Shown: one piece after another, positions 35,566 through 40,241 of the stretch
How positions within the stretch are numbered: the stretch's first letter is position 1
How the letters are laid out: every line of letters begins with the position of its first letter
Assembly: GCA_902631405.1 (NCBI GenBank)
Contig: CACOYI010000008.1
Location: 1 to 50,507, forward strand
Length of the DNA stretch: 50,507 bases
Reading direction: 5' to 3'
Origin: K189A clade bacterium
GTDB taxonomy: Bacteria; Pseudomonadota; Gammaproteobacteria; Pseudomonadales; Azotimanducaceae
The notes under the pieces: generated by a model
Database searches by the model: none
Told to the model about the DNA's origin: nothing
The model's input: the letters and a program-made list of their open reading frames with translations, nothing else
Program-made: the position numbers and the translations under genes

Positions 35566-36321
35566 TCAATTACTGGGCCAAATTGCCCTCACTCTTTCGA
35601 GCTCCTCTGGCGTGTCAACGCCCCCGGGGCTCGGAGACAACGCTCTTCGCACTAATATTTCCCCACCATTTTGCAGCCAGCGTAATTGCTCTAGCTTCTC
35701 TTCAATCTCATAAACCCCAGGCGTTAGGTTCACAAACTGCTTTAGGGTAGAAACGCTGAAGCCATATATGCCGATATGTCTACTTGCAAATTCGTACATA
35801 GACGACTCGCGAGGTAACGAATCACGAGGGTAAGGTATTGGTGCCCTGGAGAAATAAAGCGCGTATCCGTTTCGCGAGGTTACAACCTTAACCACGTCTG
35901 GATTGAAGAATTCATCCTTGTCGGCGATGGGTTCGCAAAGAGTAACAATTTGATTTTTAGTATTTTCTTTCAGCATTTCGATAATTTGATCTATGTTGGC
36001 TGTAGGGATCAATGGCTCATCCCCCTGAACATTCACAACTAGGTCCTCCTCCCCCCAGTTTTTGAGCGCGGCCACCTCCAATACACGGTCTGTCCCCGAC
36101 GTATGATCAACTGATGTCATGACTGCGGTATGACCGTAATCTTTAACCGCCTCAAAGACCTCCCTATGATCTACCGCCACCACGACTTCTTCCGCGCAGG
36201 ACTCAAGGCACCGGTCTGCCACCCTTACTACCATGGGCTTCCCCATAATATCGGCAAGCGGCTTTCCAGGCAGTCTACTTGAGGCGTATCGCGCTGGTAC
36301 AACAACGTAGCAACTAGGCAA
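35566..36321 (-). CDS. kdsB: CMP-KDO synthetase
   Basis: KdsB activates KDO as CMP-KDO for lipopolysaccharide. The 251-residue protein has VVPARYASSRLPGKPLADI, SVDHTSGTDR and VVNVQGDEPLI, with PEELERVRAIW at the end. The start is TTG and overlaps the 3' end of the msbA-lpxK frame by 8 nt, so translation is coupled to lipid A functions. The ycaR (Trm112-like) gene often found between lpxK and kdsB is absent. Confidence 0.95.
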   Translation of the reverse strand: MPSCYVVVPARYASSRLPGKPLADIMGKPMVVRVADRCLESCAEEVVVAVDHREVFEAVKDYGHTAVMTSVDHTSGTDRVLEVAALKNWGEEDLVVNVQGDEPLIPTANIDQIIEMLKENTKNQIVTLCEPIADKDEFFNPDVVKVVTSRNGYALYFSRAPIPYPRDSLPRESSMYEFASRHIGIYGFSVSTLKQFVNLTPGVYEIEEKLEQLRWLQNGGEILVRRALSPSPGGVDTPEELERVRAIWPSN

Positions 36322-39193
36322 GGGTTTTATTCTGTTTATTTATTTTTGGAGATATATTTCGTTCTAACAGGATCTTCTCAATGGGATTCCCATTTTTCGA
36401 AATAATCATCGCCTCAATCTCCAGGTACCAAAAATTAGCTAGATCTATATTCAGATCTCGCATTTTGACCATATCTTTTTCGGTGACCACGACTGGCTTT
36501 TGATTCGCAAAAAGCAGGTCCTCCTCTAAAAACGAATAGTGATCTGGAAAAGATAAGAGATTTGTCTCTAAGCCGATTGCATGAAGGGTGCGCTGAAAAC
36601 TTAATGGATTACCTATTCCACAAACCGCGTTTACTACGGGATGCTTATCCACAAACTCTGATGGCGCTAGTTCTCTCGAATCGGACATATTGACGAACCG
36701 CAAGGGCTGTTTCTCCAGTAGAAATTCGTTCTGATCAAGACCCGACAAGCGATCGCTACTCAAAACCAAATCAACCGAATCGAGCCTACCTATGGGCTCT
36801 CTAAGTGGCCCAGCAGGCAACAATCTTCCGTTTCCAAAGCCTCTCAAACCATCAATCACGACAACCTCAAGGTCTCGCGGTAATGACAAATTTTGCAACC
36901 CATCGTCGGCTACAACAATATCGCAACCGGACTGAAATAAAATATCGATACCTCGGACTCTTTCAGCACTAATTGCGACAGGACATCCAGATCGCCTTTT
37001 TAATAGCAAAGCTTCGTCGCCATAATCTCGAGCGTCCCCACGACTTGGTACAAGACACCCCTGCCTGCTCAAGCGTGACCTATAACCTCGCGACAGAATA
37101 CCAGGCGTAAAGCCAATAGCTAAGAGATCTTTAGCTATAGCAAGAACTGAGGGTGTTTTTCCCGCGCCACCAACAGTTAAGTTGCCAACCACCAAAACAG
37201 GTATCCCTATCTTCTTCGAAACCGAATCGCGACTCTCAAACGCTTTACGCCGATAATCCACAATCTTGCCATACAGCCAAGAAAGTGGGGCAAGCAACTT
37301 TATCCAAGATCGTTCTTCATACCATGCGTTTACAATTAATGAGGAGTATCGGTTGTAATACCCCCGTATGGTTTTAGTGGCTGGCGCAGTAGAATCCTGA
37401 AAAGGCACTTTGTCATATGTTTGCTCTGATGGCCAAAACCCAGGCTTTTCTGTGTTGACGTCTTGTTCTCGAAATTGGGCAGCATGCAGCTCGGCATATC
37501 TTCCTGACTGTTCTAAAAGATCTTTATGGACTCCAGATTCGACTATTTTTCCTCCCTCCAACACAACAATTTGATCAGCAGCCTCGATAGTCGACAACCT
37601 ATGCGCTATAACCAAGGTTGTTCGGCCCACCATAACTTCATCTAACGCCTGCTGAACCATCTGTTCTGATTCGCTGTCTAGCGCCGAGGTGGCCTCGTCT
37701 AATATCAGTATCGGCGCGTCTTTTAGAATTGCTCGAGCGATTCCGATCCTCTGTTTTTGCCCCCCCGATAGTAGAATGCCATCATCACCTATAACCGTAT
37801 CTAATCCCTCGGGCAAATCTTTCACAAATCCAGCCGCATTCGCTCTTCGCAGCGCTTCCCAAATATCTTCCTCTGAGACACTATGCAGATCACCGTAAGC
37901 TAAATTTTCTCTCAAGGTGCTGTTGAAGAGCGTAATTTCTTGCGAAACCAAGCCAATCTGCTTCCTAAGGGCAACTAAATCATAATTCCTAACGTCTTTT
38001 CCGTTTAGGTATATACCCCCACCGGATACGTCATAAAAGCGCGGGATCAAACTCGCGATAGTCGTTTTACCGCCACCAGAACTGCCCACCAATGCAACTC
38101 TGCTTCCAGCCGTCAAGCTCAAATTAAAATCCGACACAACATAAGGGGCATCAGGTGAGTATCTAAATTGCACCTTCTTGAATTGTACGACTGCTGCTTC
38201 GTCTTCGAAATATGCTCGCCCGGCATCTATCTCTATATCGGAATCGAGCTGAGAGAAAACGTCCTCAGCAGCAGCAATGCCTCGCTGAAGCTTTGCGTTA
38301 ATTTCAGATAATTTCCTAATGGGTTTCCCTAACATTCCCGCCCAGCTCAGGAACATAACCGCTTCGCCACCACTCAAACCGCCGCCGATACTGGGTTGGT
38401 ACAACAATAGAATCAGACCTGACAACGCGACTGCGATAATTGTTTCATTCAGCTGAGCGCTGAAAACTCTGGTGACAGTCATTTTCAAATTCTGTTGGCG
38501 ATTTACTCTGCTTGCACTAAGAAAACGTTTCGTCTCCGCATCCTGACCGCCAAAAGTTCTCACCAGCTTGTAGCCTGACACCACCTCTGAGGCGACTTGA
38601 GTAACATCGCCCATCGATCTTTGAATTCGCCGACTTATCTTTCTAAAGCGGCTACTCGAAAACATAACGATCAATCCAAGCAATGGGGCCGACGCAATGA
38701 AGAGCAGAGTTAGCTTCCAATTTAGGAAGAGCATGAAACCAATTAACACCAGAACCTTTACCCCATCTTGAATAATGGCCCGCAAAACGTCTGTTCCTGT
38801 GTCACGCAATTGAGTAACAGTGAATGTGATTCTCGAAACAATGTGTCCCTGAGAATTTGCATCGAAATAAGAACTAGGTAGCTTTAACAATTGATCAAAG
38901 AGCTGCGCTCTGAGGTTATAGACCATGTTGAACGAGATACGCGACATCAGAGTCTCCCCCAGGATCGTACCTACCGCTCTCACCAAGGCAGCCACACACA
39001 TCATTATCGGAATGGCGGCTCCAATCGTCAGACTAGGCTCGTCCCACTCATCGATTAATTCGCCAAATAGCTTGACGAAATAGCCTTCAGCCCCCGCTGC
39101 CATAAGGAAACCAATTATGGAAAAGACAAACAGCCACCAATAGGGCGTGATGTACCGCAATAACCTCCTGTAGGTTTTCAGATCACCACCCAT
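36314..39193 (-). CDS. Fused lipid A flippase MsbA and lipid A 4'-kinase LpxK
   Basis: One 959-codon frame encodes two normally separate proteins. Residues 1 to about 572 are MsbA: a six-helix ABC exporter domain, Walker A VGSSGGGKTT, signature LSGGQKQRIG, Walker B ILILDEATSALDS and VIAHRLST. After a polar linker (about 573-615) without Met comes LpxK: membrane-anchor region LLAPLSWLYG (about 633), P-loop NLTVGGAGKTPS (about 668), catalytic Asp in VVADDGLQ, His in FPDHY and VVTEKDMVK. Both halves look complete. The product would phosphorylate lipid A precursor and flip finished lipid A across the inner membrane. It follows exbD by 17 nt. Confidence 0.92.
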   Translation of the reverse strand: MGGDLKTYRRLLRYITPYWWLFVFSIIGFLMAAGAEGYFVKLFGELIDEWDEPSLTIGAAIPIMMCVAALVRAVGTILGETLMSRISFNMVYNLRAQLFDQLLKLPSSYFDANSQGHIVSRITFTVTQLRDTGTDVLRAIIQDGVKVLVLIGFMLFLNWKLTLLFIASAPLLGLIVMFSSSRFRKISRRIQRSMGDVTQVASEVVSGYKLVRTFGGQDAETKRFLSASRVNRQQNLKMTVTRVFSAQLNETIIAVALSGLILLLYQPSIGGGLSGGEAVMFLSWAGMLGKPIRKLSEINAKLQRGIAAAEDVFSQLDSDIEIDAGRAYFEDEAAVVQFKKVQFRYSPDAPYVVSDFNLSLTAGSRVALVGSSGGGKTTIASLIPRFYDVSGGGIYLNGKDVRNYDLVALRKQIGLVSQEITLFNSTLRENLAYGDLHSVSEEDIWEALRRANAAGFVKDLPEGLDTVIGDDGILLSGGQKQRIGIARAILKDAPILILDEATSALDSESEQMVQQALDEVMVGRTTLVIAHRLSTIEAADQIVVLEGGKIVESGVHKDLLEQSGRYAELHAAQFREQDVNTEKPGFWPSEQTYDKVPFQDSTAPATKTIRGYYNRYSSLIVNAWYEERSWIKLLAPLSWLYGKIVDYRRKAFESRDSVSKKIGIPVLVVGNLTVGGAGKTPSVLAIAKDLLAIGFTPGILSRGYRSRLSRQGCLVPSRGDARDYGDEALLLKRRSGCPVAISAERVRGIDILFQSGCDIVVADDGLQNLSLPRDLEVVVIDGLRGFGNGRLLPAGPLREPIGRLDSVDLVLSSDRLSGLDQNEFLLEKQPLRFVNMSDSRELAPSEFVDKHPVVNAVCGIGNPLSFQRTLHAIGLETNLLSFPDHYSFLEEDLLFANQKPVVVTEKDMVKMRDLNIDLANFWYLEIEAMIISKNGNPIEKILLERNISPKINKQNKTLA

Positions 39194-39210: not shown

Positions 39211-39639
39211 TTAATCCTCTATGGCCACAATGCTGATGGTCTTTATCCCACTTTCTCTACAAATATCCATCACAGAAACGATTGATTGATAGTCAACTTG
39301 TTTATCCCCAAATATAGAAACTGTCGTCTCGGGGTTATCAATGATGAATCTGGAGAGCTTTTCTCGCAGGCGCGAAGAATTTATCGGCTCTTTTTCACCT
39401 ATGCCTTCGCCCACAGAAAACTTTCCATATCTATCGACATACACCTCAATTGAAGTCTCGGACACTGACATTCCGGCCACCGCTCCCGTCTCGGGAAGCT
39501 CTATATCAAAGCGGGGCTCCTTGATAAAAGTGCTGCTTATCAAGAAAAAAATTATCAATAAAAACAGGACATCCAGTAAGGGAGTAAGCTCCAAAGACGA
39601 GGAGGTTCTCTGTTTTCGACGCTCAGCGAGAAGGCTCAT
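39211..39639 (-). CDS. ExbD/TolR-type transport protein (LPS locus)
   Basis: The 142-residue protein has one transmembrane helix with the proton-binding aspartate in LTPLLDVLFLLIIFFLI and a periplasmic domain ending DICRESGIKTISIV. It is distinct from the TonB-cluster ExbD. An exbB-exbD pair directly before lpxK is a conserved arrangement in pseudomonads and relatives; its role there is not settled. It begins 8 nt after the ExbB-like gene. Confidence 0.9.
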   Translation of the reverse strand: MSLLAERRKQRTSSSLELTPLLDVLFLLIIFFLISSTFIKEPRFDIELPETGAVAGMSVSETSIEVYVDRYGKFSVGEGIGEKEPINSSRLREKLSRFIIDNPETTVSIFGDKQVDYQSIVSVMDICRESGIKTISIVAIED

Positions 39640-39647
39640 GGGACCAA

Positions 39648-40241
39648 TTACGACGCTTTGTGTCGTGGATCAAGAATCTTTCGACTCGTTGCGTCCAGAT
39701 AGATCAAAAGAGAATCTACCCGCCTATAGAATAAACGATGCGCCATCAATGCAGGAATCGCAACTATCAATCCGAAAGCAGTCGTAATTAATGCGGTCGA
39801 GATGCCGGATGATAATACTGAGGGATCAGCGGCTCTAAAGGTCAGCGCATCGAAAACGTCAATCATACCAACAATTGTCCCTAAAATTCCTAGCAAAGGT
39901 GCAATTAAACCAATCACGCCGAGTAACGTAAGGTTTTTTTCCATTTCATTGGCCGCAGACAGCAAGAACAGATCATTTGTCTCCTTTCCGTTCTCCGTCT
40001 CCAGCTCCTTCTGTCGTAATAATAAAAAACCTAGAACTGAGTTCAGGGACCTTGCCAACTGAGGATCCACCGCTTTGTTCTGATCGCCCAAATCGCTTAC
40101 ATTCAATGAAGCAAGCCTTGGCGGCGCTATCACTCGGAGGCTGAGTGACCAGCATCTCTCGACAATAATCCCAGATGTTAAAACACTGCACGCCAAGATA
40201 GGCCACATTAACCATCCTCCGGAAAGAAAAAGATTAAGCAT
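39648..40241 (-). CDS. MotA/TolQ/ExbB-type proton channel protein (LPS locus)
   Basis: The 197-residue protein has a first helix at residues 8-28 (GGWLMWPILACSVLTSGII) and the channel region GVIGLIAPLLGILGTIVGMIDVFDA followed by STALITTAFGLIVAIPALM. No receptor-type TonB gene is nearby. It is likely the proton-channel partner of the adjacent ExbD-like protein and precedes msbA-lpxK in one operon. A weak GGAGGA lies ahead of the ATG. It begins 6 nt after the PLP-enzyme stop. Confidence 0.9.
   Translation of the reverse strand: MLNLFLSGGWLMWPILACSVLTSGIIVERCWSLSLRVIAPPRLASLNVSDLGDQNKAVDPQLARSLNSVLGFLLLRQKELETENGKETNDLFLLSAANEMEKNLTLLGVIGLIAPLLGILGTIVGMIDVFDALTFRAADPSVLSSGISTALITTAFGLIVAIPALMAHRLFYRRVDSLLIYLDATSRKILDPRHKAS

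Follow-up and report, generated by a model that had tools for sequence, protein, structure and literature searches.

The fused gene and its two halves

The stretch of DNA analysed here, called the window throughout, comprises 50,507 nucleotides of contig CACOYI010000008.1 in assembly GCA_902631405.1, from a K189A clade bacterium of the family Azotimanducaceae (in the NCBI taxonomy the K189A clade stands with marine gamma proteobacterium HTCC2089 inside the OMG group). On its minus strand lies msbA::lpxK, a single open reading frame (ORF) of 959 codons plus stop, beginning with ATG and free of internal stops, in which the lipid A flippase MsbA is followed by a linker and then by the lipid A kinase LpxK (Table 1). 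Pfam places ABC_membrane at residues 21–288, ABC_tran at 354–503 and LpxK at 632–933 of the protein, the last (PF02606) with 294.5 bits against a cut-off of 27. The NCBIfam equivalog models agree: TIGR02203 for MsbA is passed with 645.6 bits (cut-off 602) and TIGR00682 for LpxK with 206.5 bits (cut-off 91.95), while on a second MsbA equivalog model, NF008381, the protein scores 541.1, below the threshold of 867. Judged by these models, both MsbA and LpxK are complete within one open frame, as an earlier reading of the sequence alone (the sequence-only reading) had proposed. That reading also described a linker of about 43 residues without methionine; the methionine-free character holds, and the length is 45 residues. 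The window genome (73% complete) has no LpxK match besides the fused gene, and in all 13 genomes tested the fused gene, and no other, exceeds the curated MsbA cut-off.

Table 1. Features of the msbA::lpxK locus in window coordinates
Feature	Position	Strand	Basis
msbA::lpxK fused gene	36314..39193	(-)	ORF, Pfam and NCBIfam; same frame in G022
MsbA half, residues 1–577, ABC (ATP-binding cassette) exporter with membrane domain and ATPase domain	37463..39193	(-)	TIGR02203; catalytic residues conserved
Linker, residues 578–622, 45 residues, no Met	37328..37462	(-)	ORF translation, start-codon scan
LpxK half, residues 623–959, N-terminal membrane helix segment AWYEERSWIKLLAPLSWLYGKIVDYRR	36317..37327	(-)	TIGR00682; aligned with A. 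aeolicus LpxK 4EHX
Cytidylyltransferase gene, by context kdsB (synthetase of CMP-Kdo, cytidine monophosphate 3-deoxy-D-manno-octulosonate), overlapping the fused gene by 8 nucleotides	35566..36321	(-)	PF02348
ExbD/TolR family gene, directly upstream of the fused gene	39211..39639	(-)	PF02472
ExbB/TolQ family gene, upstream of the fused gene	39648..40241	(-)	PF01618

The MsbA half matches the equivalog model over its full length and keeps the Walker A, signature, Walker B and H-loop residues: K382, S/T383, Q424, LSGG, D505, E506 and H537 (Escherichia coli numbering), which we take to be the positions with the ABC catalytic roles. K382, D505, E506 and H537 are present in all 33 fused loci usable for this comparison out of 38. 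At the seven positions that presumably form the lipid A cavity of E. coli MsbA (R78, R148, R188, R238, K243, R296 and K299), the window is positive at six; the position of R148 is Gln, as it is in 21 of the 33 fused loci, window included. A further difference from E. coli MsbA is the addition of 382 C-terminal residues, which contain the kinase.

The LpxK half, compared with Aquifex aeolicus LpxK (4EHX, 4LKV), retains the catalytic K, T, D, E, DD and H positions, that is the P-loop K/T, D99–E100, the Walker B DD and H261 (A. aeolicus numbering), both in the window and in every one of the 33 fused loci compared. It differs from the A. aeolicus enzyme in that its N-terminus is tethered to the ABC domain, and in that the 1-phosphate contact (A. 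aeolicus H143, E. coli H152) is Asn in the window and in G022, the closest relative found, the residue being His in 31 of the 33 fused loci. The motif DDGLQH has thus become DDGLQN, at about 36900–36915 of the window and otherwise only in the nearest relative (locus L084; 2 of 33). H143 is described as a substrate contact, not a catalytic base, and its alanine mutant as having a Michaelis constant raised 7-fold (PMC6286764; the papers cited here by PMC number were available in part, and are cited for those parts). Because the changed residue is a substrate contact and not the catalytic base, assignment to LpxK stands. The earlier statement that all catalytic motifs are intact is therefore right for catalysis and has to be amended for one substrate contact. 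The same paper describes an amphipathic helix at the N-terminus through which LpxK attaches to membranes and on which its activity depends (PMC6286764), in agreement with the mode of membrane entry assumed in the sequence-only reading; this helix segment is kept in the fusion, and the region of the helix and its basic patch can be aligned, at the sequence level, with E. coli LpxK.

The frame is found again in G022, a separate genome with DNA 91% identical to the window: 896 of the 959 residues are identical, without a single insertion or deletion. Nonsynonymous (dN) and synonymous (dS) divergence between the two, by the Nei–Gojobori method, is dN 0.019 and dS 0.362 for the MsbA half, 0.138 and 0.308 for the linker, and 0.041 and 0.316 for the LpxK half. 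Both halves are strongly constrained, and the linker less so.

Some long LpxK frames elsewhere were considered and rejected as fusions: G305 (968 residues), G840 (950), G713 (692), G735 (814), G785 (770) and G797 (746), in which MsbA lies in a different frame, or a stop precedes the opening of the LpxK frame, or MsbA was not found. Since several such frames outside the family arise by chance, a long open frame by itself is no proof; in the window, unlike in these cases, MsbA and LpxK are read in the same frame.

Distribution of the fusion

LpxK was found in 183 of the 206 genomes searched in the window's family, and in 152 of these 183 it lies in a frame of at least 750 residues, so that the fusion, which the sequence-only reading had suggested looking for in related genomes, is indeed there. 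Among 75 family loci examined, MsbA shares the frame in all 54 with a frame of at least 750 residues. Seven of the 152 long frames (G020, G026, G035, G124, G135, G201 and G227) include only part of LpxK. The remaining 31 genomes are made up of 15 with separate genes and G101, which are discussed below, of G131 and G118, which have a stop or ambiguous bases within MsbA, and of 13 whose coordinates suggest to us that a contig end truncates the locus; three of the 13 (L012, L041 and L095) still have MsbA in frame, and one of the 13, G100, also has a stop within LpxK. In 36 other families of the same order LpxK is present in 34 of 36 genomes, with no frame longer than 476 residues.

Within a class-wide sample LpxK was present in 137 of 141 genomes, and among the matches listed, frames longer than 900 residues with MsbA in frame occur, besides the window, in G636, G655, G619 and G605. 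The order of G605 is here called the SAR86 order because the tree puts G605 together with loci of SAR86. There LpxK was found in 116 of 141 genomes, in frames of 913–966 residues in 110 of the 116, the other six being short, partial or broken; the MsbA half was verified in G605 and in seven named SAR86 loci, and the remainder was counted by frame length. The fusion seems to be the rule in the SAR86 order. It occurs also in three gammaproteobacterial families beyond the window's family and the SAR86 order. Among the best 80 named loci found with the family LpxK, 12 are fused, 35 are split and 33 lack MsbA upstream on the same strand; SAR86-titled loci among the 80 are fused in 7 of 7 cases. No fusion was confirmed outside Gammaproteobacteria among the matches listed for a phylum sample of 150 genomes, frames of 603 residues in G813 and 566 residues in G786 being left aside.

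Some loci and lineages depart from this picture in other ways. Most of MsbA is gone from L073 (G101, genus g59 in our labelling), where an ExbD-like gene is followed by an MsbA-like N-terminus (recognised by eye) running into LpxK and then by a KdsB-like gene; internal loss or assembly collapse is possible. One SAR86-order genome of about three contigs has a fragmented LpxK with internal stops (G934:C1:459263-460107). LpxK and LpxC are both missing from all of nine family genomes, G049 and G157–G160 (g11), G052 and G106 (g14), G138 (g64) and G156 (g68), eight of which are at least 90% complete; these are possibly lineages without lipid A inside a Gram-negative marine family. Another possible loss of LpxK concerns genus g30 of family f9 in the same order, in which five of six genomes (G068, G315, G341, G364 and G385; four 97–100% complete, the fifth 88%) have no LpxK match among those listed, and G255 has one.

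Origins, separations and the linker

The sequences point to a real, family-wide fusion that has apparently evolved repeatedly. A tree of 65 loci on MsbA plus LpxK, from a short search, needs seven state changes. Rooted outside the family, it reads as a separate fusion event in each of the family, SAR86, f89, f106 and f125, together with two separations within the family. A more careful tree of 51 loci has the split genes of genera g8 (a 100/100 clade), g66 and g61 nested in fused lineages. Taken together, this suggests about five origins of the fusion and about three later separations. For g66 a separation is less sure than for g8, since its placement beside g5 has support of only 84/50, and this genus may instead have retained the original two-gene state. 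Relatives with two separate genes and a start codon, a case that the sequence-only reading had named as telling against it, thus exist in three genera of the family, but their nested position lets them be read as later separations. A single origin of all fusions was considered and is unsupported: in the short-search tree those of SAR86, f89, f106 and f125 stand apart from the family, amid split relatives.

The split genes of g8 carry a further hint. No ATG lies near the LpxK start in seven of nine of them, whereas beyond the family this is so for 6 of 37 split genes (the loci compared are related; L068, L075, L163 and loci without the anchor motif were excluded). We take this as a hint that the g8 genes may be newly separated and forced onto weak starts. 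In the split g8 loci L061 and L063–L066, the sole or nearest start candidate among ATG, GTG and TTG is a TTG immediately ahead of the first Trp. The split g66 genes do have an ATG, in five of five cases.

As to how the genes were joined, msbA and lpxK sit side by side or overlap in many relatives that have them split, and they form one operon in E. coli (PMC4412817, PMC10328246). The simplest origin would be that the stop codon of msbA was lost and the gene thereby ran on into its operon neighbour, which on our trees would have happened about five times in Gammaproteobacteria, with about three reversals in the family of the window. With ExbB- and ExbD-family genes upstream and a kdsB-like gene downstream, the fusion joins two neighbours of an envelope gene cluster. 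The E. coli K-12 operon has both genes in the same order and kdsB farther downstream; it differs in encoding two proteins from genes that overlap by 4 nucleotides, and in having ycaQ and ycaR before kdsB.

The linker varies in both sequence and length. In the 32 of 73 fused loci where it could be measured it spans 31–54 residues, with a median of 41.5; the measure starts from a motif in the MsbA tail, and on it the window linker counts 50 residues. We estimate that a linker of such length would by itself be enough for LpxK to get from the ABC domain to the membrane. In the window (L001) there is no in-frame ATG, GTG or TTG from −25 to +2 codons around the N-terminal Trp of LpxK; a GTG codon is present in the first part of the linker, outside this scanned stretch. 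The start-codon scan covered 52 of 73 fused and 53 of 66 split loci, the remainder lacking the anchor motif, and at least four named loci duplicate one of the numbered genomes. An ATG near the LpxK start was seen in 14 of the 52 fused and 39 of the 53 split loci, an ATG with a Shine–Dalgarno-like site in 0 of 52 and 9 of 53, and any start with such a site in 3 of 52 and 15 of 53; 41 of the 52 fused loci have a start codon of some kind close to the LpxK N-terminus. The gene is probably translated as one chain.

Function of the fused protein

On balance we think it probable that msbA::lpxK is a true fusion giving one protein, an MsbA that carries a tethered LpxK, and that the gain lies in a fixed 1:1 ratio and joint placement of the two enzymes and not in a hand-off between them. 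MsbA works as a homodimer. The product would be a single protein of about 106 kDa (from its length), an MsbA subunit with LpxK on a flexible cytoplasmic tether; each homodimeric flippase would hold two kinase domains, their N-terminal helices lying on the inner leaflet beside it. LpxK would add the 4′-phosphate, separate WaaA and LpxL-type enzymes would complete Kdo2-lipid A, and MsbA would then flip it. This dimer layout and the benefit of the fusion are what we infer, and a role in tethering and stoichiometry is likely. If translated whole, the fusion surely sets LpxK:MsbA at 1:1 and holds the kinase at the flippase; the sequence-only reading had suggested the fixed stoichiometry as a possibility. 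For comparison, in a model of E. coli LpxK is estimated at about 2.1 per MsbA (PMC4412817).

A simple hand-off from kinase to flippase fits poorly because in E. coli WaaA and LpxL act in between: the product of LpxK is lipid IVA, and MsbA flips the later Kdo2-lipid A (PMC4412817). Genes for both steps are found in genomes with the fusion: of the 13 tested, all but the incomplete window genome have WaaA, and all but G636 have the LpxL family, so that each is present in 12. Direct channelling or gating, in which LpxK passes its product to the flippase or LpxK activity gates MsbA, is very unlikely in our view, given these genes, although both enzymes act at the same leaflet and would share one chain; the substrate channelling entertained in the sequence-only reading is accordingly unsupported. 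Some room for direct coupling is left because E. coli can transport lipid IVA. A broader idea, unlikely although less so than channelling, is that in SAR86 and the window's family the flippase may scaffold lipid A assembly, with LpxK docked permanently, WaaA and LpxL working on the lipid kept at that site, and the state of the kinase feeding back on flipping. If this were true, one machine would control both entry to and exit from the last inner-leaflet stage, and the repeated origin and loss would reflect selection for or against the coupling.

Several observations weigh against a tethered, single-chain enzyme with a function of its own. Fifteen genomes of the family in three genera (nine g8, five g66 and one g61) have separate genes, so the fusion is not indispensable, and the monophyly of the family is supported at only 89/67 in the careful tree. 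E. coli can bring lipid IVA to the outer membrane and stays viable (PMC6286764), which bears on the hand-off set aside above. Some free LpxK may also be made in fused loci from starts near its N-terminus, given the ATG, other start codons and occasional Shine–Dalgarno-like sites counted there.

The last point leads to a pre-protein, either one chain that is later cut in the linker or a fusion from which LpxK is additionally made at an internal start. A loosely constrained linker and the start codons in 41 of 52 fused loci (3 of 52 with a Shine–Dalgarno-like site) would suit it, but in the window the 25 codons that precede the Trp of LpxK contain no start, an ATG with such a site was seen in split loci only, and the split g8 genes seem to have been forced onto weak starts when they parted; we regard this explanation as extremely unlikely. 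A neutral operon fusion, with the stop lost between co-translated neighbours and no gain beyond operon co-expression, is possible if rather doubtful. Such a loss would be tolerated because the termini are free, and the adjacency or overlap of the genes in many split relatives and in E. coli, the roughly three separations within the family and the variable linker all suit it; against it stand the five or so origins and the persistence of the fusion in 152 of 183 family and 110 of 116 SAR86-order genomes. That the frame is an assembly or sequencing error is hardly conceivable: the window does come from a draft genome in 82 contigs, but the long frame recurs in 151 other family genomes, including G022 and the one-contig genomes G104, G105, G223–G225, G240 and G241.

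No earlier description of an MsbA–LpxK fusion was found among the papers listed in the literature searched, which left supplements and most subscription papers outside, so that a report elsewhere is possible; the available part of PMC3711429 mentions a cluster labelled "Tetraacyldisaccharide kinase /acyltransferase", which is not MsbA. The nearest parallel is the LpxC–FabZ fusion of Bacteroidetes and others, in which, too, two neighbouring genes of a lipid A region are joined across groups; it concerns other enzymes and steps and, in the part available, no transporter (PMC3087551). MsbA–LpxK combines two known enzymes in a new architecture; as a kind of system it is not new. It joins two normally separate core envelope proteins in several groups of mostly uncultured marine bacteria, among them SAR86, which ranks with the most abundant bacteria of surface waters across the world's oceans (PMC11582366). 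With relatives that never fused the genes, that fused them and that separated them again, these lineages provide a natural experiment on whether enzymes of lipopolysaccharide assembly do better when they are physically linked to the flippase. For annotation, a fused gene named only as MsbA or only as LpxK may make one of the two functions seem missing.

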